Origin: Bacteroidetes bacterium GWF2_35_48
GTDB lineage: Bacteria > Bacteroidota > Bacteroidia > Bacteroidales > GWF2-35-48
DNA: 61,698 nt
Direction: 5' to 3'
NCBI GenBank assembly: GCA_001769125.1
Contig: MEOG01000099.1
Location: 11,220-72,917 of the forward strand
The position numbers and the translations under genes were made by a program. The notes under the pieces were generated by a model. It saw only the letters and a list, made by a program, of their open reading frames with translations, was not told the DNA's origin and did no database searches. Of the stretch, positions 36,171 to 55,927 are shown one piece after another (position 1 is the first letter of the stretch; the number at the start of each line of letters is the position of its first letter).

Positions 36171-37026
36171 AAGAAATTTTTCTGTAAAATAAATAAAAAA
36201 AGATTACAAAAAATAATGCTGCTTATTCGAGAAATTTAATAGTGCTATACCACGGCTATAATTTGCACTTGAGAGCCCTGTAAAGTAGTAATACGGGCAG
36301 AAAATACTTTTCTTTTTCTACTCCTACTCGCCACACTGCGATGCGCTGAGCTTGCCGAAGTGAGCGTAGTCGAAGTGCTATTCCTACTCCAAATTTGAAA
36401 ATTACATATTAAGCAATCACAAATTCAAAAAATAAAGCATGAGACCACTCAGAAAACCTTTCTGCCACAGACCTGCCTTGTCGGCAGACAGGTTACGCCA
36501 ATTTTCACAGATTATTAATTCTATTAATCAGTTAATTAAATCTGTGTTAATTCGTGAAATCAATGGCAAATTAATAAAATAATACTTTTCGGAGGAGACT
36601 CATAATTAATGGAGCAAATATATTTACTTATTTTGTTTTTTCAATAGATTCTTTTTGGTATAAAATCTTTACCGCTTTTTTTTTGGATATTTAGTGTTTG
36701 TCCAAAAGATGTGTCCACACGGTAGCTTGTCGGCAGATTTACCTGATGTAAATTTACCTGTAGTAAACAGGCAGGCAGGTTTGTATAACCAGCCTGCGTC
36801 TGGCAGGTCATCGGCAAATATCAAAAAAAAAACCTTTTCAGAGGGAATTCAAGTATATGCAGAAATTGGCGTTTTCTTGCTGACATTTATAGTAATATTT
36901 AGGCTAACCCCTACATGCAACCATTGGAAGCTATTGTTAGTCTATTGAATAGCATCATAATGATAAATATCATATCAATAACATAAAAAACCCATTGAAA
37001 TAGAATTTTAAATACTTTTTTTTTAT
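36171..37026. other. Gene-free repeat-rich gap
   Basis: No gene is supported here. It holds a GCTTGCCGAAGTGAGC/GTAGTCGAAGTG segment (36350-36380), CCTGCC/GGCAGG-type motifs (36470-36495 and 36765-36815), TCTGTGTTAATTCGTG (36540-36555) and one copy of the GTGTCCACACGGTAGC repeat (36711). A short open frame at 36694-36948 is translated repeat sequence. Confidence 0.7.
36711..36726 (+). repeat. GTGTCCACACGGTAGC repeat, copy 1
   Basis: Identical 16-mers occur inverted at 42574-42589 and direct at 42766-42781. The last is also preceded by AAAAGAT, as here. The first two copies bracket the T9SS giant, PqqD and peptide genes as an inverted pair. Confidence 0.75.
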
Positions 37027-37070: not shown

Positions 37071-40000
37071 ATGAAAACATTTATACGTTTATCGCTTTTA
37101 ATTAGCTTTGTTGTTTGTTTTATTACTTCATCTTATGCTCAGACTCAATGGTACTGGACAAACACAGGAGGAGACAATGCATGGAGTAATTCTGACAACT
37201 GGGACGATGGTTATGGTGGAACCGGATCACCTGCAGCTGGAGATGATATTATTTTTGACGGTGACATTTCTACAGGAAACTGTAATTTAGATGTAACTAC
37301 ATTTAATACTCCCACCTCCAGAATAAATTCGATAACCTTTTACAATGGCTTTTCCAATTCATTTAATCAAAATATTGTCTTTTATGTTTTAACTGTAACT
37401 CTTTCAGCAGGAACATTCGCACAGGGAGCAGCTTTGTATGTAGGCGATCAAACTTTGGTTGATGGCACTTTAACTATTGATGGAGGTACTTTTTCAGGAG
37501 CTACGCAAGCTATATATATAAATGGGACATTTACAATATCCAGTGGAACATTTAATGCCACTACTGGAACAACCAGATTTATTAGAGATTTTTCTGTTTC
37601 AGGGGGAACTTTTGATGCTGGCACAGGTACTTGTCTTTTTACAACTATGTCATCATCCGTCCTAAGCTTAACAATTGCAGGAACTGTAGATTTTTATAAA
37701 TTAACCCTTTCTGCAGCAAATATCCTTAATAATACCGATAATTATACTTTTGTAATTAGCAATACGATAACAGCAAATAACACACTGATGTTAGCTACAG
37801 GTTTATCAGCCGGATCCCGATCTATTTCAATAAATACCGGCACTATAAATGTTGAAGCAGGTTTAACCATTTCAAATACATCAACCTCAACAAATGGAGG
37901 AGGAAATGGAACCCTGAACTTCAACGGTACTATAGATCAGACTTTAACCGGACCCATTACAGACGGTCAAAAAAAACTTCCTGGTATTAAAATAGATAAA
38001 TCAAGTGGAACATTAACAATCTCGAATTACATAACAACCGCAGGAAACTGGGAATATGCCAGTGGTACAATTGACTTTGGGACATCTACTGTTACATTTG
38101 CAGGATCAAGTTCACAAACTATAAAAGGCGCACAAAATACCAGTTTTTACAATCTTACTAAAAACACTTCCCAAATCCTCACTATTGGCGACGCTTCTAC
38201 TTCTGGAAATACTATTCAGGCAACCAATGCATTCACATGGACCGACAATAACGACAAAATAACCGTTGGCAATGGGCAAAATGTAACTTTTAAAGTTCCG
38301 GGTGCTATTACCATTAATGGTGGGCAAACTCTTGAATCTACTTCAAACGGCACATTTGATTGCAACGGCACATGGACGAATGACGGTACTTTCACTCATG
38401 GTAACGGAACTGTTATTATGCGCGGAACTGCTGCAAGTATAACCGGATCAGCATCTGTTAATTCATTTTATAATCTTACATTAAATCATTCATCTGCAGG
38501 AACAGTTACTATTCCTTCACAAAAAGCAGTAACTGTAACCAATACACTTACTTTAACAAGTGCAAATTCCTCTCTTTTGGTGGATGGCTCTGCATCCGGT
38601 ACTAGTGTTTACTCCGGTTCTTTAATAACAGGCAGCATCTCAAATACAGGGGGAGCTTGTAAATTTAAAACCGGAATTTTAAAAGAAAAGTGGCATTGTA
38701 TTTCTTCACCTGTAAGTACTGCAAGTATTCCTTCTGTTTTTGACGATCTGGCCACACATAATGATAATTTATACTGGTACAACGAAACCGTTGCTGATGG
38801 TTATTGGACGCAGATAACTTCCGGGAATATGGGAGTAGCTAAAGGGTATTACATCTATTACTTTAATAATAAATTTAAAACCTATACAGGTGGAACTTTT
38901 AATACAGGAACACAAGGTCCTGCTTTAAGTTATACAACTTCGGGGAGGGACGGTTGGAATTTTATAGGAAACCCTTACCCATCAGCAATAGACTGGAAAG
39001 CTTCTTCCGGATGGACAAAAACAAACTTAAATGATGCAATTTATGTTAGAAATGGTTCGACTTGGGCTTCTTATGTTGGCGGTGTTGGTACAAACGGCGG
39101 TACTCGCTATGTTCAGCCAGGTCAGGGCTTTTTTGTAGTTGCCAATGCTTCGAGTCCAGTTATTAGTATGACAAATGATGTCAGGGTTCACAATACTGCA
39201 TCTTCTCTTTTAAAAGAAGCAACACAGGATTTACTTGCGCGAATAAATATTTCATGGGAAGACAGCTTGTTTTCTGATGCTGTTGTAAGGTTTAATGAAA
39301 ATGCTACAACTTCTTTTGACCCTAATTATGATGCGTATAAATTTTTCTCTGAAAATTCCAATATGCCTGAAGTTTACACTTTAGCGAATGAAGATTCAAT
39401 GTCAATAAATTCATTCCCGATATTTATTCAGGATTTTGTAATTCCACTCGGTGTGAAAACTGGTCTTGCAGGCGAATACACAATCTCTACGAATGAAATT
39501 GAGAATTTACCTACCAATGCGCAAGTTCTTCTTGAAGATATTTTGCTTGATTCTATCATTGTAATGACTACTGAAAATTCTTACATATTTACAACTATAC
39601 AAAATGATATTAATACAACTGGAAGATTTAATCTCAGATTTAACATTGTAAACCCTCCTGAAATATCTGTACAACCTACTTCACAAACAGTATGCTCTAA
39701 TGAAGCAGTTTCGTTAAGCGTTGATGTTGCATATCCTAACAGCGAAACATACCAGTGGTACAATTCAGAAGGTATTTTAGATGGAGCAATACAAAATACA
39801 TATACGATTAGTTCTGCAACATCAGCAGATCAGGATTCGTATTATTGCGTAGTTACTAATGATGATGGTTCTGTTCAGAGTGATGCTGCGGTTCTTACAG
39901 TTAATAACTCTGTTGCCGTAAGTAATCAACCAGCAGGAATCAGTATTTGCGAAAACGAAAATTACTCTTTATCTGTTAATGCAGATGGCACTGGAATAGC

Positions 40001-41873
40001 TTACCAATGGTATAAAGACAATACACTCTTAACCGGAGAAACTTCTTCTTCCGTTTCTTTAAATATTATTTCTTCCGAAGAAGCCGGAACATACTATTGT
40101 GAAATTACAGGAGTTTGTAACACAATCAATACGGATAATGCAGTTGTAGCAGTAAAACCTCTTCCAATAGTTGATTTAGGAACAAACCAAACTGTTTGCG
40201 AAGGTACACCCGTAACTTTAGATGCTGGAAACACCGGTGCTGAATTTTTATGGTCTACCGAAGAAACAACGCAAACCATCAGCCTTGCAACATCAGGTAC
40301 GTATATTGTTGTTGTTTCTAAAGATAATTGCACTACAACAGCGCAGGTTGATGTTACGATTAATCCATTACCTATAGTTGATTTAGGAAACGACAACACG
40401 CTTTGTGAAACATCTTCTGTTGTTTTACAGGCAGGAAACCCCGGCGCTACGTATGAGTGGAGTACTGGAACAACAGGTTCGCAAATTACTGTAACCACTA
40501 CAGGTACGTACTCTGTAACTGTAACAAAAGATGCTTGTTCTGCTACAGATGAAGTTTCGTATGTTTTCAATCCGTTCCCTGTTGTGAATCTTGGAGCAAA
40601 TCAGGCTATTTGTAATGGAACAACGCTGACATTGGATGCTGGAAATACCGGCGCAAGCTATATCTGGTCAAACAATGCAAACGCTCAAACGCTTGATGTA
40701 ACAACCGCTGGCACTTACGAAGTTACAGTTACTGTTGATGGCTGCTCTGCTATTGATGCAATAACTATCACAACAAAACCTACTCCTTATGTTGATTTAG
40801 GCTCTGACTCTGAAGTGTGCCAGGGAACGTATGTTTCTCTTGATGCAGGTTTTGTAACAGGTAATACGTATTTGTGGAGTACTGGCTCTCAAAATCAGAT
40901 ATTAAATCCAACACAAACGGGTATTTATTCTGTAACCGTAACGCGTGATGGTTGTTCAGGTGAAGGCACTGTAGGTATTGTTTTCAATGCGATTCCAACG
41001 GTAGATTTAGGTCAGAATATTACTGCCTGTGATAATGAAAATATTTCTCTATATGCAGGAATTTCAGGAGCGCAGTATTTATGGTCATCAAATGAGACGA
41101 CACAGACAATTGTTCCCTTATACACCGGTTCATATTCTGTAACTGTTACACAAAACGGCTGTTCAAATTACGATGCTGTTTATGTTCAAATCAAGTCCAC
41201 TCCTTATGTTGAGCTTGGTTCCGATATTGAAACTTGCGAAGGCTTACCTGTAGCACTTGATGCAGGTTATATCAACGGAAATAGTTATACATGGAGTTCC
41301 GGTTCGCATTATCAGACAATTTCTGTTAGTGAATCTGGAACTTATTCTGTTACTGTTACAAACAATGGTTGCTCAAGCACCGATGAAATTGGTGTAACAA
41401 TCAATCTGCTTCCTGTTGTTGATTTGGGAACAAGTATTGAGTTATGCGCAGGTTGTTCAACAATTTTCGATGCAGGAAATTCAGGATCAATTTATGCATG
41501 GTCAACTTCTGAAACAACACAAACAATTTCAGTTTCGGAAGCAGGTACTTATACCGTTACCGTAACATCGCCTGAAGGTTGCTCAACAATCGAAAGTGTT
41601 GTTGTGGATATTTCTACTGGCAACAATTCATTAACATTATCAGAGCAAATAGATATTTTCCCGAACCCTGTTATTAATGTATTAAATGTACATACTAATT
41701 ATACCGGTTTTTACAAAATCGTACTTTCGGATATTCAGGGCAAGGTAAAAATGAGTATAAATACTGATAAAAATCACAGTGTTCTTGATATGAATTCTAT
41801 AGAAAATGGCGTATATTTGTTGCAAATTATTTCAGCAGAAAAAACAACTATTGAAAAAATTATAAAACACTAA
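37071..41873 (+). CDS. Giant T9SS-sorted surface protein (1600 residues)
   Basis: Signal peptide ending SSYAQ, then a beta-rich region opening WYWTNTGGDNAWSNSDNWDDG (a 'G8-like' head), repeated beta-helix-type strands (about 60-510) and a module at about 515-745 (LITGSISNTGGACKFKTG, WNFIGNPYPSAIDW, QPGQGFFVVAN) shared with the giant at 50336. Two Ig-like domains (about 860-1030) and seven units starting VDLG....C (about 1030-1510) follow. Residues about 1520-1600 are a type A T9SS sorting domain (IDIFPNPVINVLNVH...GVYLLQI). It should be attached to the cell surface or released, perhaps as an adhesin. The PqqD-like gene begins 4 bp after its stop, which suggests co-transcription. Confidence 0.9.
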   Translation: MKTFIRLSLLISFVVCFITSSYAQTQWYWTNTGGDNAWSNSDNWDDGYGGTGSPAAGDDIIFDGDISTGNCNLDVTTFNTPTSRINSITFYNGFSNSFNQNIVFYVLTVTLSAGTFAQGAALYVGDQTLVDGTLTIDGGTFSGATQAIYINGTFTISSGTFNATTGTTRFIRDFSVSGGTFDAGTGTCLFTTMSSSVLSLTIAGTVDFYKLTLSAANILNNTDNYTFVISNTITANNTLMLATGLSAGSRSISINTGTINVEAGLTISNTSTSTNGGGNGTLNFNGTIDQTLTGPITDGQKKLPGIKIDKSSGTLTISNYITTAGNWEYASGTIDFGTSTVTFAGSSSQTIKGAQNTSFYNLTKNTSQILTIGDASTSGNTIQATNAFTWTDNNDKITVGNGQNVTFKVPGAITINGGQTLESTSNGTFDCNGTWTNDGTFTHGNGTVIMRGTAASITGSASVNSFYNLTLNHSSAGTVTIPSQKAVTVTNTLTLTSANSSLLVDGSASGTSVYSGSLITGSISNTGGACKFKTGILKEKWHCISSPVSTASIPSVFDDLATHNDNLYWYNETVADGYWTQITSGNMGVAKGYYIYYFNNKFKTYTGGTFNTGTQGPALSYTTSGRDGWNFIGNPYPSAIDWKASSGWTKTNLNDAIYVRNGSTWASYVGGVGTNGGTRYVQPGQGFFVVANASSPVISMTNDVRVHNTASSLLKEATQDLLARINISWEDSLFSDAVVRFNENATTSFDPNYDAYKFFSENSNMPEVYTLANEDSMSINSFPIFIQDFVIPLGVKTGLAGEYTISTNEIENLPTNAQVLLEDILLDSIIVMTTENSYIFTTIQNDINTTGRFNLRFNIVNPPEISVQPTSQTVCSNEAVSLSVDVAYPNSETYQWYNSEGILDGAIQNTYTISSATSADQDSYYCVVTNDDGSVQSDAAVLTVNNSVAVSNQPAGISICENENYSLSVNADGTGIAYQWYKDNTLLTGETSSSVSLNIISSEEAGTYYCEITGVCNTINTDNAVVAVKPLPIVDLGTNQTVCEGTPVTLDAGNTGAEFLWSTEETTQTISLATSGTYIVVVSKDNCTTTAQVDVTINPLPIVDLGNDNTLCETSSVVLQAGNPGATYEWSTGTTGSQITVTTTGTYSVTVTKDACSATDEVSYVFNPFPVVNLGANQAICNGTTLTLDAGNTGASYIWSNNANAQTLDVTTAGTYEVTVTVDGCSAIDAITITTKPTPYVDLGSDSEVCQGTYVSLDAGFVTGNTYLWSTGSQNQILNPTQTGIYSVTVTRDGCSGEGTVGIVFNAIPTVDLGQNITACDNENISLYAGISGAQYLWSSNETTQTIVPLYTGSYSVTVTQNGCSNYDAVYVQIKSTPYVELGSDIETCEGLPVALDAGYINGNSYTWSSGSHYQTISVSESGTYSVTVTNNGCSSTDEIGVTINLLPVVDLGTSIELCAGCSTIFDAGNSGSIYAWSTSETTQTISVSEAGTYTVTVTSPEGCSTIESVVVDISTGNNSLTLSEQIDIFPNPVINVLNVHTNYTGFYKIVLSDIQGKVKMSINTDKNHSVLDMNSIENGVYLLQIISAEKTTIEKIIKH

Positions 41874-41877
41874 AGCC

Positions 41878-42162
41878 ATGAGAGAATTATTAATGAGAAT
41901 ACTGCGAAAAAAGCAAAATCTTGTTGCCCGTAGAGTTGGCGACGAGTACATTCTTGTTCCTGTTGTCAATAAAGTAGCAGAAATGGACAAGGTTTACACA
42001 CTGAATGAGGTGGGCGCTTTTATCTGGGATCAGATAGACGGGAAAAAAACTGTTGATGAAATAATTCAGGCAGTAACACATCAGTATGAGGTTAAACGTA
42101 TTATTGCTCAGGATGATGTGATAAATTTTATTAAAAAAACTGAAAATATAATTTTGAATTAA
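41878..42162 (+). CDS. PqqD-family peptide-binding (RRE) protein
   Basis: A 94-residue protein with the PqqD fold: a basic start (RKKQNLVARRVGDEYILVPV), a beta-hairpin, then YTLNEVGAFIWDQIDGKKTVDEIIQAV, the characteristic PqqD helix region, and a C-terminal helix. PqqD-like domains act as RiPP recognition elements, binding the leader of a precursor peptide and presenting it to modifying enzymes. Here it lies 4 bp after the giant T9SS gene and 41 bp before a 52-residue peptide gene with a matching YxxP motif. A kinase-like protein, a peptidase and an exporter follow, so a chaperone for that peptide is the best-supported role. It is not a PQQ biosynthesis gene, since no pqqACE is present. Confidence 0.88.
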   Translation: MRELLMRILRKKQNLVARRVGDEYILVPVVNKVAEMDKVYTLNEVGAFIWDQIDGKKTVDEIIQAVTHQYEVKRIIAQDDVINFIKKTENIILN

Positions 42163-42181
42163 AGAAATAATTATATTTTTG
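42153..42181 (+). promoter_or_regulatory. Promoter of the small peptide gene
   Basis: TTTG at 42153-42156 and TATTTTTG at 42174-42181, 17 nt apart (slightly short of 19). The peptide ATG is 23 bases on. The -33 element overlaps the end of the PqqD gene. Confidence 0.55.
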
Positions 42182-42203
42182 AAAATTATTTGAATGCGAC
42201 TTG

Positions 42204-42362
42204 ATGATTGAAACTAAAATAGTAACCAAAAAAAAGAATTACATCTCACCTGATTTTGAGGAGATACTAATTGACTCAAGCATCACGCTTATAATGCAAT
42301 CTCCCGGAGGCGATCCTGATCCCGGAAGCAGTAGTGGCGACCCCGGCGATGATGAATGGTAA
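42204..42362 (+). CDS. Candidate 52-residue precursor peptide (RiPP-like)
   Basis: A short gene encoding 52 residues. It opens MIETKIVTKKKNYISPDFEE and continues ILIDSSITLIMQ, then a tail from residue 33 of Ser/Pro/Gly/Asp only, apart from the final Glu-Trp (SPGGDPDPGSSSGDPGDDEW). A basic, amphipathic leader with YISPDF (residues 13-18; YxxPxF) resembles the YxxPxL recognition motif of lasso-peptide leaders bound by PqqD-type RREs. The change from hydrophobic leader to acidic Gly/Pro tail near residue 32 marks a likely cleavage zone. Own promoter upstream, strong terminator 18 bp after the stop. It has no Cys or Thr-rich core and no known modifying enzyme beside it. A coding role is supported by composition and position; no homologue can be checked here. 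Confidence 0.7.
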   Translation: MIETKIVTKKKNYISPDFEEILIDSSITLIMQSPGGDPDPGSSSGDPGDDEW

Positions 42363-42380
42363 AAAGAAAATAATAAGCAA

Positions 42381-42413
42381 AAAAGAAGAAACATTGTTTC
42401 TTCTTTTTTTTTA
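42381..42413 (+). terminator. Terminator of the small peptide gene
   Basis: AAAAGAAGAAAC (42381-42392) pairs with GTTTCTTCTTTT (42396-42407) around ATT, followed by more Ts. It lies 18 bases after the peptide stop and isolates that transcript from the kinase gene. Confidence 0.9.
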
Positions 42414-42425
42414 AAATGGATACTA

Positions 42426-42849
42426 TTGTCCGATAAAATTTTATTAATCACTTTAAACATGTCACTACAACACGTTTTCATGACAGGATGCTCCTACCTG
42501 CTTGTCGGTCTGGCAAGTGGAGCTAATAAATTATTTTTCCCATAAACAATACGTCCTTACCTGCCAGACAGCAGCTACCGTGTGGACACAAATAATGAAA
42601 AACGACTCCGGAGGAGTCGAAGGTTTATAACCCCGAGCTCAAGCTCGGGGTATAAACAAATGAGAATAAAAAGATTTTGGCGGAAAATTTGCGTAATACC
42701 TATGCTTAGCCTGACAAAACAATATTAGTATGCAAATTTTGTGACAAAATCAAGCAAAAAAAGATGTGTCCACACGGTAGCAGACAGCAGGCTGGCGGGA
42801 CTTAAAATTAAGGAACTCCATAGGAGCGCCCTGTTTATTTATCGGACAA
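42426..42849. repeat. Repeat island between the peptide and kinase genes
   Basis: Bounded by inverted TTGTCCGATAA (42426-42436) and TTATCGGACAA (42839-42849), the latter ending two bases before the kinase ATG. It contains the inverted pair GCTACCGTGTGGACAC (42574) / GTGTCCACACGGTAGC (42766), a CCTGCC/CTGGCAGG set, the two-hairpin element copy A and a GGAACTCC...AGGAGCGCCCTG palindrome (42812-42834) related to the 46.5-kb repeats. No gene is present. Confidence 0.7.
42603..42751. repeat. Two-hairpin plus long-stem element, copy A
   Basis: Hairpin 1: CGACTCC-GGA-GGAGTCG (42603-42619). Hairpin 2: CCCCGAGC-TCAA-GCTCGGGG (42631-42650). Long stem: GATTTTGGCGGAAAATTTGC (42673-42692) with GCAAATTTTGTGACAAAATC (42732-42751), 17 of 20 paired. 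The same layout recurs at 44388-44530 with compensatory changes. Confidence 0.8.
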
Positions 42850-42851
42850 CA

Positions 42852-43733
42852 ATGAAAATGAATACTACAAAAAATATATATCTTTCAATTGCCGATCACC
42901 AGGTGTGTATTGACGTTTGTAATTTTAAAAGCGATATATGTATAGGTGCTTATTGTCGTAATTTTTTAACCGATAATTTTGCAGATATAAATTTAACAAT
43001 TAAATGTTTTTCAGGATTACCGAACCTAAATTTAACGGAAGAATTTTGTTTATTTAATGCAGAAGAATTAAATGACGCGGGCTTTGAAAATAAATGGGGT
43101 GTTTACAAGCAAAATCAAAACATTTATATTTCTGCCGTGTTGCCACAGAATGGCAGCGTAATTCTTCATCTTGTTTCTGAATCAGAAATGCATCTTTTTT
43201 TTGAAAAAGAGAGCCTCCTCATTGATCCTTTTTTACCACCCTTAGGACCGCTTATCTATTATTATCTGGCAAGTTTTAACAAAGGATTTCTTTTGCATGC
43301 TTCGGGAGTGGCGGATAACAACCACGGATATATTTTTACCGGAGTTTCAGGAATTGGTAAATCAACAATGGCAAATTTATGGAAAGATAACGGAGCGCAG
43401 GTAATTCATGATGATCGCTTGTTTATCCGTAAAAATAAAGAGGAGTTTTTCTTTTACAATACGCCCCTGTATGATGATGATACACCAAAATCTGCTCCGA
43501 TAAACGCGGTTTTTATTTTATCGCAATCGAAAGAAAATACAATTAAAAAAATTAATGGAGCAATAGCTGCTTCAAAAATTTTAGCAAATTGTATTCAACA
43601 CCCCTATGATGAAAAATTGATTTCTTCTTTGCTTGATACTGTAAGCAAGCTTAGTTTATCAGTCCCTGTATATGAATTGGGTTTTTATCCTGATTCAAAA
43701 ATCATTGATTTTATAAAAGAACATATTGGATGA
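42852..43733 (+). CDS. HPr-kinase-like (PEPCK-fold) protein
   Basis: About 293 residues from the ATG at 42852. A longer in-frame reading from 42741 is rejected because its first 37 codons are the repeat island. A strand-rich N-terminal half precedes an HprK-C-like domain: LHASGVADNNHGYIFTG, P-loop GVSGIGKST (about 164-172) and VIHDDR (about 185-190), the nucleotide- and metal-binding residues of the HPr kinase/PEPCK fold. HPr-kinase-like proteins occur in RiPP clusters, for example the paeninodin kinase that phosphorylates a precursor. With PqqD and a Ser-rich peptide upstream, peptide kinase activity is an attractive inference. Its stop overlaps the peptidase start (ATGA). Confidence 0.82.
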   Translation: MKMNTTKNIYLSIADHQVCIDVCNFKSDICIGAYCRNFLTDNFADINLTIKCFSGLPNLNLTEEFCLFNAEELNDAGFENKWGVYKQNQNIYISAVLPQNGSVILHLVSESEMHLFFEKESLLIDPFLPPLGPLIYYYLASFNKGFLLHASGVADNNHGYIFTGVSGIGKSTMANLWKDNGAQVIHDDRLFIRKNKEEFFFYNTPLYDDDTPKSAPINAVFILSQSKENTIKKINGAIAASKILANCIQHPYDEKLISSLLDTVSKLSLSVPVYELGFYPDSKIIDFIKEHIG

Positions 43734-44158
43734 TGAATATTGAGGATCGCGAGCAAATATGGGAGCTTAACAAAAAAGTTTTGCAATCGGGAGCTACCGT
43801 GAAAATACAACTTTCCGGCACCAGCATGTTTCCTTATCTGAAAAAAAACGACATCGGGTATTATCAATTTATTGCTCCGGAACTATTGCAAAAAGGGGAT
43901 ATTGTCGCTTTTGAACAGCATGAAAATTTTATTACGCACAGGTTGATAAAAATATCAAATTCAAATTTATTTTTAACACGCGGAGATGCTTGCATTGATT
44001 TCGACAAGACGATTGGAGCGAGTGCTATCATTGGGAAATTAATAAAAATTGAAAGAAACGGAAAGCTAATTTCTCTTATAACTCCTTACCGGAATTTTCT
44101 ACACAAACTTTTTGCAACACACCGGATTTTTATCCGATTGTATGCGAAATTTATTTGA
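43730..44158 (+). CDS. SipW-like S24/S26 peptidase without membrane anchor
   Basis: A 142-residue S24/S26-fold peptidase. The catalytic Ser32 is in LSGTSMFPYL, and the second active residue is His70 in NFITHRLIKI instead of the Lys of bacterial LepB, so it uses the Ser-His dyad of SipW/ER-type signal peptidases. GDIVAFEQHEN precedes it and LTRGDAC is the third motif. No transmembrane segment is seen; the protein appears cytoplasmic or peripherally attached. The start overlaps the kinase stop. In this setting it is the natural candidate to remove the leader from the 52-residue peptide, perhaps at the membrane near the exporter. Confidence 0.83.
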   Translation: MMNIEDREQIWELNKKVLQSGATVKIQLSGTSMFPYLKKNDIGYYQFIAPELLQKGDIVAFEQHENFITHRLIKISNSNLFLTRGDACIDFDKTIGASAIIGKLIKIERNGKLISLITPYRNFLHKLFATHRIFIRLYAKFI

Positions 44159-44159
44159 T

Positions 44160-44191
44160 TTTGTAAATATCCTTAATTTCTGCTATTTTTG
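44160..44191 (+). promoter_or_regulatory. Candidate promoter of the exporter gene
   Basis: TTTG (44160-44163) and TATTTTTG (44184-44191), 20 nt apart. It would give a leader of about 350 nt before the ABC gene, containing copy B of the two-hairpin element. Confidence 0.55.
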
Positions 44192-44387
44192 AATAGTGAA
44201 AATGGGTTTTTTATATAAAAATTTTTGAGTTTAATATTGGTAATTTGCCATAATTAGTGGGTACTATTTTTCAAAATTGAAATACAAAAGAGTTGCGAAT
44301 TTCATGTTTAGTAATAATTAAACGCACCCACAGTTTTTGTTGAATAAGCATAATATTAATATCAGCAGAAAAATAAATTAGCAAAAG

Positions 44388-44530
44388 CGACTACGAAGTA
44401 GTCGAATGTTAATTACCCCGAGCGGAGCTCGGGGTATAAACAACATATTAAAGTGATTTTGGCGAAAAATTTGCACAGTTTTATTCTTCTATTTTTTTAA
44501 GAGCATATCCGCAAATTTTATGACAAAATC
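44388..44530. repeat. Two-hairpin plus long-stem element, copy B
   Basis: Hairpin 1: CGACTAC-GAA-GTAGTCG (44388-44404). Hairpin 2: CCCCGAGC-GGA-GCTCGGGG (44416-44434). Long stem: GATTTTGGCGAAAAATTTGC (44455-44474) with GCAAATTTTATGACAAAATC (44511-44530). It ends 18 bases before the exporter start. The hairpin-1 change from C:G to A:T relative to copy A preserves pairing. Confidence 0.8.
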
Positions 44531-44548
44531 TTTACGAAATAATTAATA

Positions 44549-46345
44549 GTGAATATACATTATAATATATTATCAAATCTCAAGCGAAGCATAAAATTCG
44601 TTTATTCTGTTCGGAAAAAATGGCCCATACTGAATACCGGTATTTCTGTATTTAATGGCATTCTTCCTTTATGTTTTATATTATTGATTAAACAAATTAT
44701 TGATGCGATAACAAATGTATCTCAATCACAGAATAATAGTTTTCAATTTGATTATCTTATTATTCTTATAGCAATTGCCGGGCTTGTTTTTTTAATAAAT
44801 GAAATTTTATCGAATTTAGCGCAACTGACAAAAGAAAACCACATTCAGGAAGTAAACGATCTTGTTTTTGATAAGCTTCATGAAAAATCTTCACAGCTCG
44901 ATCTTGAGCATTTTGAAAATCAGAAATATCAGGATATTTTATTTCGCGCACGAACAGAGGCTGTTTTCAGACCGGCAAGAATTATTAACAGTATTCTTGC
45001 AATCTGGCAAAATTCTTTTTCTCTTATTCTTTCAATCGTAATTCTTTTTTGGGTGCATTGGAGTATCGCTTTGATTCTATTAGCCGCGATTATTCCGGGC
45101 GTTTTTATTCGCGTAAAATATGCAAGATTTTTATTTGAATGGAATAAGAAAAATACTTCAAAAGAAAGGCGATCCCGGTATTTGAATTTTCTCGCAGTAG
45201 GTGAGAAGTATATTAAAGATATTCGTTTATTCGGATTGGAAAATTATTTTAAAACTGAATTTAAAACTGTACGGAAAGAGCTTAAACAAGAGCGTTTAAA
45301 ATTAATGTCCCGTCGCGTTGGAATTGAAATATTAGGACAGGTTTTTACAGCTCTTGCAATTTTTGGTTCTTTTATTTTTATTGCCAAACAAACCATTGAT
45401 GGCGCAATGACAGCCGGTACCATGGTTTTGTTTTTTCTTGCATTTCAACGCGGGTTTACCTATTTCAGAGGGGTTGTAAACAATCTTGCGAATCTTTACG
45501 AAGACAGTCTTTTTCTCAATTATTATCATGAATTTCTTTCATTAGAACCAAAAATAAATAGGCAGCCTGATTCGATTTCTTTTGGGAAAAAGTTCTTAGT
45601 TGATGGTATGAAAATCGAAAACCTTAGTTTTACTTATCCCGGCTCTGATATAAAAATTTTACAAAATATAAATTTTGAAATTAAAGCAGGAGAAACGCTT
45701 GCAATTGTGGGAGAAAATGGCGCAGGCAAAAGTACGCTGATTAAATTGCTGTGCAGATTTTATGATCCCGACACCGGAAAAATACTGCTTGATGGAACAG
45801 ACATTAAAAATATTGAATTGGATACGTACAGAAATTCAATCAGCGCATTGTTTCAGGATTTTTCACAATTCCATTTTTCAATTAAAGATAACATTGCTTT
45901 CGGAAATGTACAAAGTGAATTTTCTTATGATGATTTTTCAAAAGCCACTAATGGAGCAGGAATTGAAAAGTTATTACGAAAATTTCCTGATAAAGAAAAT
46001 ACTTTGCTCGGAAATACTTTTGAAAAAAGCAGTGAGTTAAGTATTGGAGAATGGCAGAAAATAGCCCTTGCGCGTTTTTTTTACAGGCAATCCTTGCTTG
46101 TTTTTATGGATGAACCAACAAGTCACCTTGATTCAGAAACGGAAGCACTGTTTCATTCCTATCTTACAACGTATTTAAAAGATAAGACTGCTGTAATAAT
46201 AAGTCATAAAATACCAACACTTCAAATTGCCGACAGGATAATTGTTTTAGCGCAAAACACAATTGCAGAAACCGGAACATACGAAGAATTGATGAGCAAA
46301 AAGGGAGCGTATTATTCTATGATTGTGAAAGGAAGTAATTGTTGA
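44549..46345 (+). CDS. ABC exporter (fused permease-ATPase)
   Basis: A 598-residue half-exporter with a GTG start; no ATG lies near. Six transmembrane helices fall in about residues 20-325. The ATPase domain begins at about 350 with Walker A GENGAGKST (about 387), a Q-loop in ALFQDFSQFHF, the signature LSIGEWQKIALAR (about 496; E replaces the usual GGQ) and Walker B VFMDEPTSHLD (about 518), then ISHK. There is no N-terminal C39 peptidase, so any leader must be removed by another protein, consistent with the peptidase gene upstream. It is the last gene of the peptide cassette and probably exports the peptide as a homodimer. Confidence 0.92.
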   Translation: MNIHYNILSNLKRSIKFVYSVRKKWPILNTGISVFNGILPLCFILLIKQIIDAITNVSQSQNNSFQFDYLIILIAIAGLVFLINEILSNLAQLTKENHIQEVNDLVFDKLHEKSSQLDLEHFENQKYQDILFRARTEAVFRPARIINSILAIWQNSFSLILSIVILFWVHWSIALILLAAIIPGVFIRVKYARFLFEWNKKNTSKERRSRYLNFLAVGEKYIKDIRLFGLENYFKTEFKTVRKELKQERLKLMSRRVGIEILGQVFTALAIFGSFIFIAKQTIDGAMTAGTMVLFFLAFQRGFTYFRGVVNNLANLYEDSLFLNYYHEFLSLEPKINRQPDSISFGKKFLVDGMKIENLSFTYPGSDIKILQNINFEIKAGETLAIVGENGAGKSTLIKLLCRFYDPDTGKILLDGTDIKNIELDTYRNSISALFQDFSQFHFSIKDNIAFGNVQSEFSYDDFSKATNGAGIEKLLRKFPDKENTLLGNTFEKSSELSIGEWQKIALARFFYRQSLLVFMDEPTSHLDSETEALFHSYLTTYLKDKTAVIISHKIPTLQIADRIIVLAQNTIAETGTYEELMSKKGAYYSMIVKGSNC

Positions 46346-50335: not shown

Positions 50336-53300
50336 ATGAGGTTATTTTTTAAATTAGTATTTTTATTTTTTATTTCTATAAGTATTTTTAATTCTTATGG
50401 AGCAACGTTCTATTCAAGGGTTTCAGGAGGAGAATGGGGGAGTGCAGATTCCTGGTCTCAGGTTGGCTGCGGAGGAGAAGTTTCGCCAACAGTTCCGGGA
50501 GAATTTGATGATGTTATTATTTGTGCAGGCTATAATGTTTTGGTAAAAGCCAATGAATCCTGTCGTTCTATAACCATTTATGGTTCTTTGCTTTGGAGCT
50601 CCAAGAAAATTTTAACAATAGGAGCGGAAGGTCTTACTATTAATGGCGGAACAATTACATCTAGCAGCCAGATAGGAACATTGAATGTTGGGGGAAATTT
50701 TGTTGCTACAGGTGGTACCAACAATATCGGAAGTGTTGATTTAACCATTTCTGGTATAACAACTGTAAATTCAGGAGCTACATTAAATATCAGCGAAACC
50801 GGAGGGGTAAAGGTATTTTCAACTTTAATAATTTATGGCACTTTTAATAATGCCGTAAATCAGGATATAACAATAAACGGAAGTTTACGAAATGATGGTA
50901 CATATTCTGTGGGAACAGGAAGAGTTACTTTTGGCGGCGCATCTAATAATACTGTTACCGGTACTTCTGCAATCGCTTTTAATACAATAACAATTAATAA
51001 AGGTGTAAGCAAAGACAATGTACTTGATGCGCAGTCTTTAATTACATTAACTGATGGTGGTTTAACACTTACTAACGGAACATTGAAATTAAGCAATACC
51101 TCTATTTCTCTTACACCTTTTCTTTCGGATGTTATAGCGGCTCCTTTCAGAATACCCGAAACAGCAGGTTTGTGGTGTAATGGAGCAACAATAAATTCGG
51201 GGAATTTTAACTGGACTGTCGCTGGATTATTGCGAATTTCTGCCGGAACAGTAAATCTTGGAACAAGTTCTGATAATTCATTCAGGGCAGTTAATGGTAC
51301 AACACAGCTTATTGTTGAAGGCGGAACATTTAATGTTGCCGGAGCAATTACCCGTGTTGCAATTACAGATAATATAGTTTTTTCTATGTCTGGTGGTACT
51401 GTTTTAGTTTCCGCTTTCGGTGTAACAACAGTAGGCGTGTCTCCTTTGCAAATAGATCAGGCGGGTTCAAATTTTTCTATGACATCCGGTACTATTGTTA
51501 TAAGAGGTGCTGGTGCTGCGAATTTAGGGGTTACACTAACTGCCGGTACTATCTCTTTGTCTGCCGGTACAATTCAGATTGGAGATGCTTCTTCCCCGGC
51601 AGCACAAATAATAAATATTAATACTGCTTCTACTGTTCCCAATTTAACAATTAATAGTTCGACTGTAACTGCTCGTTTAGTTTCAAATCTTACAGTTTTA
51701 CAGAATTTAACAATAAGTACTGGTACTTTAGATGCGAATAATTTTAATCTTTTTGTTGGCAATTCATGGACCAATAATGGAAGTTTTTTATCCGGTTCCG
51801 GAACATTGACTTTCAATGGTACAGGAATACAGTCTGTTTCGAATCCGAGTGGTGAAGTTTTTAGTAATTTTACTATAAATAAAACAAGCGGATATATTGC
51901 ATTATCAGGTAATTTGAATGTTACCTCTGTATTTACAATGACTCAGGGAAATATTGATTGTGGATCTTCTGCATTAACATTAGGAACAGATGTTGTATCA
52001 ACCGGGTCTTTGGTTTATTCTTCCGGTAATATTATTGGGACTTTCACACGATGGATAAATTCAACCGGCTCTGAAATCTTGTTCCCTATTGGTACTTCAA
52101 CGTCTTCGCGATCTGTTTCTGTAAATTTTTCAAACCTTACGAATGGAAGTCTTACAATTAAGTTTTTTGATACAGACCCGGGTTCTTTAGGATTGCCTTT
52201 GATAGATGCCGGAATAAATATTGCAAATCAATTTACGGATGGGTATTGGGAGTTTTCACCTACAGGGTTATCAAGTACAAATTATAATCTTAGTTTAACA
52301 GGCAATGGGTTCTCAAGTTATACTATCAGTGATGCCACACGAATTTTATACCGGACAGGTTCTTCTGGTTCTTGGGCTTTAAACGGAACACATGCTATTG
52401 CCGTGGGTTCTATTGCTAATAGGACTTCTTTAAGTGGAATTTCTGGTCAGTTTGCTTTCGGAAATCCTACTTGTTCATCATATTCAGCAGATGCAATATC
52501 AGGGAATTCTTCGGTTTGTATTAGTACTACTGAAAATTATTATGTAACTAACACTTTGGGGAACATATACACATGGGTTGTTTCGGGTGGTGTAATTGCT
52601 TCAGGTCAGGGAACTTCATCTATAACTGTTAATTGGGGAGCAATTGGCATGATTGGCAGCGTACAGGTTACTGAAAAAAATTCATGTGGGACAGACAACA
52701 CTCCTGTTGTTTTATCTGTTAATCTAAACCCAATTGCTACTTCTTCAATTTCCGGAGATGCGCTGGTTGTTGTTAATCAGGTTGGTGTTGTATATTCTGT
52801 AACTAATACTACGGGTTATTCTTATACCTGGTCATTTCCCTCCGGAGGTGGATCTGTTACTACAGGTCAGGGCACCAACACTGTTACTGTAACCTGGGGC
52901 GCTACATCGGGTACTTATCCTATCAGAGTTGATGCAACAAGGCTTTGTGGTTCGTCAGATTTTCAAACTTTATCTGTTTCTGTAAGTCCAATAATTATTA
53001 GTTTAGCATCGGGAAATTGGAATAATGCAGCTATCTGGCTTGGTGGAGTTGTTCCTTCTGCTGGTTCTTTTGTTGAAATTTCAGCAGGGCATACTGTAAC
53101 AATAAATCTGACAGCCAGTTGTTACCAGTTTGCTATCAAAGGAAATGCAGAATGGTCTACAAATCCGTCAAAAACTCTAAACGTTGGAAATGGTGGGATA
53201 ATTATTTATTCGACGGGCAATGTAACAGGAGCCAATGCAGGTGTTTTAACTACTACAGGGGGAATAACAGGAAGTAGTAATCCGAACATCTCCAGTACTC

Positions 53301-55927
53301 TTGTAGACATTCAAGTTGTAACAGTGGCAGGTCAGTCAATTACTGCTACAGGATCTTTTAATACATTAACCATAAATGCAAACGCAACAAATACCGGCAC
53401 TATTAAAATTGCTGGAGGAGGTACGCTCGCGGGTTCTGCAACACTTACACAAGGCGAAAATTCAACACTGACTTTAGAGGGAGCGAATTTTACATTAACA
53501 AACCTCAATGCGGCTGCAAATGGGAATACTGTTGTTTATGGGGCTAACGCGGCGCAAGCTGTTCGGACAGGTACGTATCATAATTTAACAGTTTCAACAA
53601 CTGGTTCTGCAAATACAAAAACATTTGCGGGTGCTATTGTTGTGAATGGAAATATAAATATTTCGGGTGTTACTCTTGATGTAAGTGCCAGTAATTATGC
53701 AATTGATGTTAAAGGAAATTGGACAAATACTGGAACTTTTACTCCGCGTGGAGGTTCTGTTACTTTTAGCGGGAATTCTGATCAGGCGATAACGAATACA
53801 ACTGGTGAAGTATTTAATAATTTGAATATGTCCGGCAGCGGAGCAAAAAACCTTACGAATCCGATTACAATTAATTTTGATTTTTATTTAAGTTCGACAT
53901 TAAATGCAGGGGCTAATAATGTCTCTATTCGGGGAAACTGGAATAATACCGGATATTATTACTGCGATAACAATACTGTTACTTTTACGAATGCAACAAC
54001 TTTAATGGGTACTGCTGTTAATGTTTTTCAAAATGTTGTAATTTCCGGATCTTTAACCGGACATTCCAATAATTTTTATGTTACAGGAAACTGGACTAAT
54101 AATGGAGTATTTAATCATAATGGAGGTATTGTTATTTTTAATGGAAATGCTGCTCAAGCTATTTCAGGAACAGCAAATACAACATTTTATAGTTTAACAG
54201 TTAACAATTCATCAGGTGTTTCATTAAGTAATCCGATAACTGTTGAAAATAATTTTTTAATTGAAGGGGGTGCCTTCTCTAATTCTTCCAATAATGTTAC
54301 AATTAGCGGTGATCTAACAAATAATGCCAGCATCAATTCTGGTTCTGGTACATTTACGTTTAATGGTACAAGTAAATACTTGAGAGGTACATCGCCAATA
54401 AACCTTACGAATGTAGTAGTAAACGGAACATATATTTTTGACTGTGACGAACCTTCAACATTCGGAGCTTTGACTGTGAATGCCACTAAATCATTAAATA
54501 TTGCAAAAGACAGAGGTCTATCTGTTTCTTCATCTCTTTCAAATGCCGGGTCTATGCTTGTTGATGCTGGTCCAAACGGTCATTCTGGTTCCCTTATCAC
54601 TACAAATACGATGACAAATACGGGCGCCTGCACATTTAAAACGTCCATAGCAAAAAATATGTGGCATGGTCTTACTTCTCCTGTAAGCAATGATGATGTA
54701 CAAACTGTATTTTCTGATATTGGAAGCCATAATAATAATTGCTATATTTATAATGAAGCTTCAACCGGAACTGATTATTGGGTGCAGACAACAACAGGTG
54801 CATTAACTCCCGGAAAAGGATTTTATGTCTATTACTTTAGTAATAAATACAAAACATATACAGCAACTTCCGGGGAAGTGTATAATTCGGGTAATTATAT
54901 TATTCCTGTTACATACAGTGATCCAGGAAGAAAAGGTTGGAATTTTATTGGCAATCCTTTTCCTTCTGCTATTGATTGGGATGACGAGGCAAATGTTATT
55001 CTAAATAATGTTAACAGTGCTATGTATATTAAAAATGGAAGCGCTTGGGAGTCATATACAAGAGGACTGGGAGAAAGCGGCGATGGTTTTATTTATCCGG
55101 GACAGGGATTTTTTGTTGTTGCTACTGCAAATGGAAGTGTAACCATTAACAATGCATCAAGAGTTCATGCTACAACAGGAAACCTGAAAAATCTTAAAAG
55201 TAAAAAAGCCGCAAAAAGTACTACCCAACCTGTAATTCGTTTGGATTTATCTAACGACAGTACTCTTAATAAAACATTTTTTCGTTTTATGTCAGAAGCA
55301 ACTTCTGCTTTTGATGGAAGTTATGATGCATATAAGATTTTTTCTGAAGACGAAAATTATAATGAAATTTATTCTCTTTCATCAACAAATGATACACTTT
55401 CTATTAATACGCTTCCTGTTTTATCATCATCAACAATTATTCCTGTTGGAATAAAAATTCGCAAGCCTGGCGTATATTTTATCAATGCATCCAGAATTAT
55501 GCATTTTCCGGATTCTCTTGATGTATTTCTTCATGATACACAATTGCAATTAATGATCAACCTTAAAACCGATTCTTCATACACTTTTTATAGTGATGTT
55601 GTAAATACAAACTCTCGTTTTCGCTTAGTATTCTCTGCGTCTTCTACAAATATTGCAGAAGAAATCAGCGACAAATTCAGTATAACGCAACCTTACTTTA
55701 ATGGTGATGAAATTTGGATTTTAATAAATTATTGCAATTGTAATGCAATTAATGTTGAACTTTTTGATATTACCGGAAAATTAATTTTTACAAATAAATA
55801 TCCGATAGGAAGCGCCAGCGATTTGATTTCTATTAAATATCATAATATACAAAGTGGCTACTACTTAATAAAATTAGATAATAGTAAAGAAACCATTGTC
55901 CGCAAGCTGTTATACATTTCGAAATAA
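50336..55927 (+). CDS. Giant T9SS-sorted surface protein (1863 residues)
   Basis: Signal peptide ending SYGA, then a head module like that of the 37-kb giant (SGGEWGSADSWSQVGCGGEVSPTVPG), occurring again near residue 885 (ASGNWNNAAIWLGGVVPSAG). Most of the rest is beta-helix-like repeats of the kind F.G...Q.I.G...F..L.....G. Two PKD-like units lie at about 720-880, and the module shared with the other giant at about 1400-1620 (NTGACTFKTS, WNFIGNPFPSAIDW, YPGQGFFVVA). The C-terminus (about 1780-1863, INVELFDITGKLIF...SGYYLIKL) is a T9SS sorting domain. Predicted cell-surface adhesin or matrix protein; no enzyme motif. Alone in its operon, with a hairpin terminator downstream. Confidence 0.9.
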   Translation: MRLFFKLVFLFFISISIFNSYGATFYSRVSGGEWGSADSWSQVGCGGEVSPTVPGEFDDVIICAGYNVLVKANESCRSITIYGSLLWSSKKILTIGAEGLTINGGTITSSSQIGTLNVGGNFVATGGTNNIGSVDLTISGITTVNSGATLNISETGGVKVFSTLIIYGTFNNAVNQDITINGSLRNDGTYSVGTGRVTFGGASNNTVTGTSAIAFNTITINKGVSKDNVLDAQSLITLTDGGLTLTNGTLKLSNTSISLTPFLSDVIAAPFRIPETAGLWCNGATINSGNFNWTVAGLLRISAGTVNLGTSSDNSFRAVNGTTQLIVEGGTFNVAGAITRVAITDNIVFSMSGGTVLVSAFGVTTVGVSPLQIDQAGSNFSMTSGTIVIRGAGAANLGVTLTAGTISLSAGTIQIGDASSPAAQIININTASTVPNLTINSSTVTARLVSNLTVLQNLTISTGTLDANNFNLFVGNSWTNNGSFLSGSGTLTFNGTGIQSVSNPSGEVFSNFTINKTSGYIALSGNLNVTSVFTMTQGNIDCGSSALTLGTDVVSTGSLVYSSGNIIGTFTRWINSTGSEILFPIGTSTSSRSVSVNFSNLTNGSLTIKFFDTDPGSLGLPLIDAGINIANQFTDGYWEFSPTGLSSTNYNLSLTGNGFSSYTISDATRILYRTGSSGSWALNGTHAIAVGSIANRTSLSGISGQFAFGNPTCSSYSADAISGNSSVCISTTENYYVTNTLGNIYTWVVSGGVIASGQGTSSITVNWGAIGMIGSVQVTEKNSCGTDNTPVVLSVNLNPIATSSISGDALVVVNQVGVVYSVTNTTGYSYTWSFPSGGGSVTTGQGTNTVTVTWGATSGTYPIRVDATRLCGSSDFQTLSVSVSPIIISLASGNWNNAAIWLGGVVPSAGSFVEISAGHTVTINLTASCYQFAIKGNAEWSTNPSKTLNVGNGGIIIYSTGNVTGANAGVLTTTGGITGSSNPNISSTLVDIQVVTVAGQSITATGSFNTLTINANATNTGTIKIAGGGTLAGSATLTQGENSTLTLEGANFTLTNLNAAANGNTVVYGANAAQAVRTGTYHNLTVSTTGSANTKTFAGAIVVNGNINISGVTLDVSASNYAIDVKGNWTNTGTFTPRGGSVTFSGNSDQAITNTTGEVFNNLNMSGSGAKNLTNPITINFDFYLSSTLNAGANNVSIRGNWNNTGYYYCDNNTVTFTNATTLMGTAVNVFQNVVISGSLTGHSNNFYVTGNWTNNGVFNHNGGIVIFNGNAAQAISGTANTTFYSLTVNNSSGVSLSNPITVENNFLIEGGAFSNSSNNVTISGDLTNNASINSGSGTFTFNGTSKYLRGTSPINLTNVVVNGTYIFDCDEPSTFGALTVNATKSLNIAKDRGLSVSSSLSNAGSMLVDAGPNGHSGSLITTNTMTNTGACTFKTSIAKNMWHGLTSPVSNDDVQTVFSDIGSHNNNCYIYNEASTGTDYWVQTTTGALTPGKGFYVYYFSNKYKTYTATSGEVYNSGNYIIPVTYSDPGRKGWNFIGNPFPSAIDWDDEANVILNNVNSAMYIKNGSAWESYTRGLGESGDGFIYPGQGFFVVATANGSVTINNASRVHATTGNLKNLKSKKAAKSTTQPVIRLDLSNDSTLNKTFFRFMSEATSAFDGSYDAYKIFSEDENYNEIYSLSSTNDTLSINTLPVLSSSTIIPVGIKIRKPGVYFINASRIMHFPDSLDVFLHDTQLQLMINLKTDSSYTFYSDVVNTNSRFRLVFSASSTNIAEEISDKFSITQPYFNGDEIWILINYCNCNAINVELFDITGKLIFTNKYPIGSASDLISIKYHNIQSGYYLIKLDNSKETIVRKLLYISK

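Follow-up and report, generated by a model that had tools for sequence, protein, structure and literature searches.

A candidate LPP-type peptide cassette behind a type IX secretion cargo gene in Bacteroidetes bacterium GWF2_35_48

Introduction

The DNA described here, referred to as the window, is a stretch of 61,698 nucleotides from Bacteroidetes bacterium GWF2_35_48 (contig MEOG01000099.1, positions 11,220 to 72,917). The window contains a cassette of the kind that produces ribosomally synthesized and post-translationally modified peptides (RiPPs), and the cassette directly follows a gene for a cargo protein of the type IX secretion system (T9SS). The closest characterized counterpart is the pathway for linear polyphosphorylated peptides (LPP) of Paenibacillus alginolyticus, reported in 2026, for which leader binding by a RiPP recognition element (RRE), phosphorylation and leader cleavage have been demonstrated (PMC13381572). 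Our reading, with a probability of roughly 0.7, is that the cassette is a Bacteroidota RiPP pathway of the LPP type and that its product serves T9SS surface proteins as a companion. This reading draws on the genes and their conservation, active-site residues, a fixed peptide motif, co-occurrence among genomes and adjacency to T9SS genes, together with predicted folds.

Results

Organization of the cassette

A first-pass annotation had described five consecutive genes, for a PqqD-family protein, a 52-residue peptide, an HPr kinase (HprK)-like protein, an S26-like peptidase and an ABC exporter. Open reading frame (ORF), sequence and profile checks recovered all five in place, with slightly changed start sites. 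The five genes thus stand, but the unit is wider than described, as a T9SS cargo gene, precursors in trans and a nucleotidyltransferase in trans had been overlooked. The unit is composed of the following features.

37071..41873, + strand: T9SS cargo protein of 1600 residues with Ig-like repeats and a sorting domain at its C-terminus; its gene opens the unit
41878..42162, + strand: PqqD-family RRE of 94 residues (PF05402, E 4.7e-17)
42204..42362, + strand: precursor peptide of 52 residues with an ATG start; predicted leader 1–33 and presumed core PGGDPDPGSSSGDPGDDEW
42379..42409, + strand: terminator-like hairpin with perfect 15-bp arms followed by a T run, directly behind the peptide gene
42852..43733, + strand: putative HprK-fold kinase of 293 residues (weak profiles, AlphaFold2 fold, invariant residues)
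43730..44158, + strand: putative leader peptidase, S26-like and signal-peptidase-like (SipW/Sec11 type), overlapping the kinase gene as ATGA
44549..46345, + strand: MsbA-like ABC exporter of 598 residues (ABC_tran, E 4e-32)

The stop codon of the T9SS gene lies 4 bases ahead of the PqqD gene, and the 1600-residue protein matches Por_Secre_tail (PF18962) above the cut-off (E 3e-9). Given the hairpin and T run behind the peptide gene, the T9SS, PqqD and peptide genes may form a single transcript. A T9SS-type gene also stands just ahead of PqqD in three relatives (L030/L052, L053 and L098). The PF14907-type nucleotidyltransferase of the genome sits on another contig, and two T9SS sortase genes above the cut-off are likewise located on other contigs.

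Proteins of the cassette

The LPP gene set comprises an RRE, an HprK-like kinase, an SpI-type peptidase, an NTP transferase and an MsbA-like pump (PMC13381572). All of these core genes are present in the window genome, the kinase and the protease as recognized through sub-threshold profiles combined with predicted folds and the NTP transferase on its separate contig. The cassette had been presented as an unfamiliar kind, a view that the match of its gene set to LPP does not support. The profiles place the proteins unevenly: the PqqD and ABC proteins are above the cut-off or strongly matched, and the kinase and the protease reach only distant relatives below threshold.

The PF05402 match of the RRE is above the cut-off. 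Residues N43 and D80 of the RRE align with N33 and D70 of LppB in an alignment to PDB entry 9x8z, and the Asn and the Asp are each kept in 61 of 62 aligned rows. This Asn/Asp pair, which fixes the leader Pro and Tyr, is common to many lasso and PQQ RREs and is not exclusive to LPP (PMC13381572).

The kinase matches TIGR04355 (E 8.9e-9) and PF07475 (E 0.0045), both below the cut-off, and no Pfam family is found at E 0.001 from the ATG start. An AlphaFold2 model built from the family alignment (pLDDT 88.8) matches PEPCK first in the PDB, with HPr kinase among the further matches, at modest TM-scores (<0.6). H148, the P-loop G163-x-S-G-x-G-K169 and D186-D187-R188 (numbered from K42855) are invariant in 10 of 10 rows. 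Because the predicted HprK fold, the P-loop and the Asp pair are present but the curated HprK models are not reached, the enzyme is probably a relative of HprK rather than HprK itself. Weak profile matches also link the kinase and the RRE to the ScmC and ScmD proteins of the SynChlorMet cassette.

The protease matches TIGR02228 just below the cut-off (E 2e-12). Its AlphaFold2 model (pLDDT 87.1) matches LexA first and signal peptidases next, again at modest TM-scores. S32, H70 and D86 are invariant in 11 of 11 rows, and D92 is nearly invariant. The corresponding LPP peptidase residues are S29, H68 and D93 of LppS (PMC13381572), with either D86 or D92 as the counterpart of D93. For the exporter, the top NCBIfam name is MsbA, with a score below the MsbA cut-off. 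As previously proposed, the exporter lacks its own peptidase, in that its Pfam matches include no such domain.

Precursor peptide

The window peptide contains YISP at residues 13–16, D24 and S33. The leader probably ends after S33, as judged from the sequence, which leaves a presumed core of 19 residues with six acidic and zero basic residues. Neither Pfam nor NCBIfam has a model that matches the peptide at E 1. One further genome of this genus was searched (L030/L052), and it encodes a homologue between PqqD and HprK that shares the tail (SPG.DPDPGSSS..DEW).

A Y-x2-P-x7-D-x8-[S/T] register is fixed in 45 of 45 peptides found by profile, such that Pro, Asp and Ser/Thr follow the Tyr at +3, +11 and +20, respectively. 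The consensus reads YxxPx[IV]xx[IV]x[IL]DxxISLxMx[ST]. Its last position, occupied by Ser in 28 peptides and Thr in 17, is the sole invariant Ser/Thr and immediately precedes the presumed core. The earlier proposal of a phosphorylated C-terminal Ser finds no support here. The tail behind it is variable and Pro-rich, with PP or PxP within the first nine residues in 41 of 45 peptides. The tail-sharing homologue and the motif in 45 peptides make the peptide ORF more than a chance reading. Fusion of the peptide to larger proteins was considered and rejected, since ORFs longer than 130 residues in the scanned loci gave no match to the peptide model at E below 1.

The invariant Ser/Thr could instead be the phospho-acceptor, with cleavage elsewhere and the phosphorylated residue kept on the product. 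This assignment of S33 is the less likely of the two. Signal peptidases commonly accept Ala or Gly before the cut, and the position is Ser or Thr in every one of the 45 peptides and never Ala or Gly; the predicted HPr-kinase fold of the enzyme would also suit a phospho-acceptor. In LPP, the SpI-like peptidase depends on the RRE and acts poorly on unphosphorylated precursor in cells (PMC13381572). Its cut site speaks against the phospho-acceptor assignment, as it falls after Thr(−1), with Phe two residues before the Thr and, in the consensus, Ile four before it (PMC13381572). The present peptides mostly carry Met/Leu and Leu/Met/Ile at the same offsets. The LPP kinase adds several phosphates to Ser3 of the core, and LppK is inactive on an S3T variant (PMC13381572), yet 17 of the 45 residues here are Thr. 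The resemblance of the hydrophobic residues two and four before the Ser/Thr to the LPP Ile-x-Phe-Glu-Thr favors the cut-site reading.

The cassette in relatives

Relatives were collected by a kinase-profile scan, from which the best 80 of 152 matches were kept. Without duplicate contigs, 66 cassette loci were available (the window, L031, L032, L033, L036, L037 and L052–L111). Most are labelled Bacteroidales or Bacteroidota, and a few carry odd labels, including one Chlorobiota and an archaeal bin. The cassette genes were counted with profiles of our own. PqqD is found upstream in 57 of the 61 loci that have at least 700 bases on that side. Among the 59 loci with at least 2.5 kb downstream, 55 have an S26-like gene on either strand and 50 have an ABC exporter. 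Of the 39 loci whose flanks are complete, 17 have a PF14907-type nucleotidyltransferase.

In 15 of the 66 loci (L035 (=L075), L037, L074, L076, L078–L083, L091, L099, L100, L103 and L104), the protease and the exporter are fused, as checked with Pfam in two of them. The signal-peptidase-like domain occupies the N-terminus of the fused exporter, the place that C39 holds in peptidase-containing exporters. The fusions suggest that cleavage is tied to export.

A local peptide gene occurs in 23 of the 66 loci, where it may precede PqqD, stand between PqqD and the kinase, follow the nucleotidyltransferase or adjoin the protease. This variable position indicates that the peptide belongs to the system and is not merely syntenic. 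Sixteen genomes were searched from the 43 loci that have no local peptide, and eight of them encode a peptide elsewhere. Precursors in trans number five in G086, three each in G013 and G028 and two in G030. Precursors can thus stand far from the cassette, and one cassette appears to serve scattered precursors.

Co-occurrence was analyzed in 119 genomes including that of the window, nearly all at the order level. The kinase is matched at E 0.001 in 26 genomes, 12 of them strongly (E 2.1e-32 or better), and the peptide at E 0.01 in 12 genomes, 10 of them strongly (E 2.5e-9 or better). All 10 strong-peptide genomes fall within the 12 strong-kinase genomes (p 6e-13). When the five genomes whose peptides went into the peptide alignment are removed, five of five still fall within seven of 114 (p 1.4e-7). 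The two weak peptide matches (G056 and G111) are in genomes with weaker kinase matches, and the other 12 weak-kinase genomes gave no peptide match. A thin phylum-wide sample of 395 genomes contains 14 kinase matches at 1e-10, three of them (own included) better than 1e-60, and a peptide at 1e-5 in two genomes (own included), both kinase-positive.

These counts bear on whether the peptide ORF is spurious and the true substrate of the enzymes is another molecule, for example the T9SS protein itself, which we consider very improbable. The absence of a peptide from relatives that keep the other genes had been named as a point on which the proposal should be judged, and the outcome is mixed: 43 of 66 loci have no local peptide, and of the 16 such genomes searched, half yielded one elsewhere and half yielded none. 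The motif fixed in all 45 peptides, the confinement of strong peptide matches to strong-kinase genomes among the 119, and the presence of peptides in trans where the cassette has none locally all argue for a genuine precursor.

Related clusters were also encountered outside the set of 66. Gut-type Bacteroidales relatives (L042–L047, L188 and L205) include L046 and L047, which have nearby peptides such as YTSPEIEVVEV... Clusters outside Bacteroidota (L112–L131, from Acidobacteria and others) share the HprK-like, PqqD and S26-like genes, often with a protein of ~365 residues, which is a radical SAM protein in all three clusters scanned with Pfam, and several clusters have Cys-containing YxxP peptides. 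A Butyrivibrio plasmid (L187, 6590-8613) encodes an HprK-like protein, a 57-residue Cys-containing peptide, PqqD, an S24/S26 protein and a nucleotidyltransferase near capsule glycosyltransferases. This cluster came from a plasmid search for Bacillota yardsticks and was rejected as an LPP standard, as its peptide has Cys and no S/T motif.

T9SS neighbors and the shared module

For 37 of the 45 peptides, an upstream neighbor was available for analysis (35 same-strand genes within 400 bases, together with two truncated tails). The remaining eight peptides comprise four at contig ends, three with opposite-strand neighbors and one with its neighbor 1063 bases away. The T9SS sorting signal TIGR04183 is found at E 0.01 in 29 of the 37 neighbors and in 13 of 120 control genes of at least 300 residues from the same loci (Fisher p 1.2e-14; 120 of 249 genes scanned). 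As several genomes give more than one pair, the 37 neighbors are not fully independent. Single genomes can show the adjacency at several separate sites, namely four in G086 and two each in G013, G028 and G120.

The T9SS neighbors share an unnamed module of ~325 residues, which was recognized by a profile and an alignment of our own and occurs twice in the window.

38622..39596, + strand: module of ~325 residues with a G-W-N-x-x-G-N-P-Y-P-S motif, within the T9SS cargo protein
50336..55927, + strand: another module-bearing protein, encoded 4 kb behind the cassette

This second protein has no recognized companion gene. The module is found in 25 of 35 whole upstream neighbors, mostly just ahead of the sorting signal; the module profile, based on 20 of these partners plus two additional proteins, recovered the other five. 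The two remaining T9SS-like neighbors are fragments of 85 and 117 residues. A simple pattern for the module undercounted it, finding it in 19 of 26 T9SS partners and in 2 of 20 T9SS ORFs that are not partners. The window copy has no Pfam match at E 1, and none of six copies scanned gave a convincing one. The module is not exclusive to cassette genomes, a possibility that was discarded when 71 of the 119 genomes proved to carry it.

The product might also be a free secreted phosphopeptide, serving as a signal, an antimicrobial or a biofilm factor, with its T9SS neighbors reflecting a common regulon without physical partnership. Bacillota, the phylum of LPP, are not known to have a T9SS, which speaks for this alternative, as does the position of the Butyrivibrio cluster near capsule genes. 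Also on its side, the hairpin behind the peptide gene makes a single T9SS-PqqD-peptide transcript plausible. The LPP loci of Bacillota are often found at capsule loci, and a biofilm role has been speculated (PMC13381572). A regulon by itself does not predict the recurrence of the adjacency at separate sites of a genome or the module in 25 of 35 neighbors, and we consider a free phosphopeptide less likely than a companion of T9SS proteins.

PID-CTERM-like proteins in the same position

Twenty stretches behind module genes were inspected, 19 of them in genomes without a kinase match and the remaining one in G020, where a gut-type cassette is present. In 10 of these stretches, the next gene downstream codes for a small protein that combines an apparent signal peptide with a Pro-rich segment and a hydrophobic, Gly-rich end. 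Seven of these are near PPxPxGG...PVGGGAPIxGG (L194, L195, L197, L198, L200, L204 and L206), and three are looser versions (L202, L203 and L207). When the 10 were scanned with NCBIfam PID-CTERM (NF046080), two scored above the cut-off, four scored below it, including one at E 0.75, and the other four gave no match. Behind the module gene of G020 stands a YxxP peptide (L205), in the same genome as L046.

Small proteins of this type occur in 43 of the 119 genomes at E 1e-4, and 42 of these also have the module when the lists are compared by eye. In four genomes chosen for their many PID-type hits, 19 of 42 such proteins follow a module match at a distance of up to 515 bases, and a PID-type protein stands behind 19 of the 38 module matches, among the matches listed (three partial hits of 45 listed excluded). 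G000, G001, G036 and G078 have both a small PID-type protein and an LPP-type peptide, and the two kinds of companion are thus not exclusive.

In both kinds, the presumed processing site is closely followed by a Pro-rich segment. The PID-CTERM-like proteins resemble the window peptide in their place behind T9SS genes with the same module and in the Pro-rich segment, which here follows the signal peptide. They differ from it in their apparent Sec signal peptide, their hydrophobic C-terminal end and the lack of a YxxP leader. As a tentative extension, module proteins may each pair with a Pro-rich companion, delivered through one of two unrelated routes, either an LPP-type RiPP route with leader cleavage, phosphorylation and ABC export or general Sec export with a PID-CTERM-like anchor. 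The companion would dock on or join the T9SS protein and be needed for its surface assembly or anchoring, with one cassette serving many pairs.

Other features of the window genome

Two repeat copies (42590-42692 and 44375-44474) with 80% identity over 103 bases and a CCCCGAG..CTCGGGG hairpin lie in the gap between the peptide and HprK genes and in that between the S26 and ABC genes. Short matches to the repeat lie near 36704-36736. A second PqqD-like gene of the genome (L048, 9806-10048) is located in an unrelated setting beside genes that appear by eye to be ATP-grasp-like and decarboxylase-like. No kinase or protease match was found within its 19-kb stretch.

Discussion

Comparison with known RiPP systems

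The first-pass annotation had proposed a PqqD-type RRE, phosphorylation by the HprK-like protein, SipW-like cleavage and export, without a cyclase, and this core model turns out to be close to the LPP pathway (PMC13381572). Overall, the earlier interpretation is supported in part. The window system is like LPP in its YxxP leader, its discrete RRE with Asn and Asp, its predicted catalytic Ser/His/Asp and in that no cyclase is seen. It differs from LPP in its Bacteroidota host, in its leader spacing and in the scattering of precursors in some genomes. Moreover, its precursor adjoins a T9SS cargo gene, not capsule genes, and the protease and exporter are fused in 15 of the 66 loci. As gene content and RRE/catalytic residues agree and the leader consensus and phosphosite position differ, the system is best regarded as an LPP-type sister variant and not as a member.

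The LPP authors describe their pathway as restricted to Bacillota and of unknown role, and the main text contains no word beginning with 'Bacteroid' (PMC13381572). In the text available to us, neither PMC10352776, on RiPPs in Bacteroidales, nor PMC12710340, on RREs, shows an HprK-type cluster. Links of such a pathway to T9SS, scattered precursors, fusions and the position of PID-CTERM-like proteins did not come up in our searches of the open PubMed Central literature.

Lasso clusters of the paeninodin type also have a Y/WxxP leader, a discrete RRE, an HprK-like kinase and an NTP transferase (PMC13381572), and these shared components could suggest a lasso or otherwise cyclized RiPP with enzymes encoded elsewhere. 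The window adds a radical SAM gene (33972-34856; PF04055, 34.2 bits) 2.2 kb ahead of the T9SS gene. Because of that distance and an opposite-strand glycosyltransferase in between, the gene is placed outside the cassette, and a radical SAM role was set aside; the neighbors of relatives were not profiled for radical SAM. The claim that no such enzyme is present thus holds within the cassette and fails in the wider neighborhood. Of the lasso genes reported missing, the B2 protease was likewise not found here: a genome-wide search with PF13471 gave no match at E 0.001, and this search gives matches in 2 of 14 controls. No cyclase was recognized among the nine neighboring window proteins scanned with Pfam or, by eye, among ORFs of at least 150 residues; neither the genome nor the neighboring genes of relatives were searched for one. 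Furthermore, the protease slot is held by a signal-peptidase-like enzyme, and the RRE has N and D where PbaB1 has G and Q. The lasso pathway was rejected on these grounds, and a cyclized product in general is scarcely credible. A graspetide pathway was likewise rejected, as no ATP-grasp gene was recognized by eye near the cassette; no profile search for one was made.

Several observations weigh against an LPP-type pathway with a T9SS companion as its product. All that is known of the pathway here comes from genes, alignments, predicted folds and genome context. The LPP consensus YxxPxVLxHQxIxFETxxS is not reproduced beyond YxxP and a hydrophobic residue two after the Pro, and the residue at the LPP phosphosite, three positions past the presumed cut, is Gly in the window peptide and Ser in only 3 of 45. 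Among PDB entries, the RRE is closer to PbaB1 (E 6.4e-5) and TbiB1 (E 0.0011) than to LppB (9x8z; only E 0.012). The constancy of the peptide motif is partly a product of selection, as the peptides were found by profile. Besides the eight searched cassette genomes with no detectable peptide, G112 and G039 of the 119 genomes have the kinase and G246 of the phylum sample has a strong kinase match, with no peptide found in any of the three. Eight of the 37 upstream neighbors are not T9SS proteins and appear to be four TsaD proteins, two nucleotidyltransferases, a peptidoglycan peptidase and one unnamed protein. Finally, the module is common in genomes without the cassette, and G048 has the cassette and a peptide with no module match.

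Proposed pathway and significance

We infer a pathway of six steps for this organism, the first three of which were demonstrated by others for the Bacillota pathway. By analogy with LPP, the PqqD-type RRE would first grip the YxxP leader. The HprK-fold kinase would then phosphorylate a Ser/Thr of the precursor. In the third step, the RRE would offer the leader to the signal-peptidase-like protease, which would remove it, most likely right after S33. The MsbA-like exporter would carry the short Pro/Gly-rich core to the periplasm, as LPP and the gene set suggest. The nucleotidyltransferase encoded elsewhere may modify the core further. In the last step, for which genome context is the guide, the core would act together with the upstream T9SS cargo protein that bears the module.

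A cassette that apparently serves scattered precursors, protease-exporter fusions and a PID-CTERM-like protein in the same position behind module genes are further new elements of this picture. A sister pathway in Bacteroidota, with its precursors behind one kind of T9SS gene, would offer a concrete, testable hypothesis for the role of such peptides.

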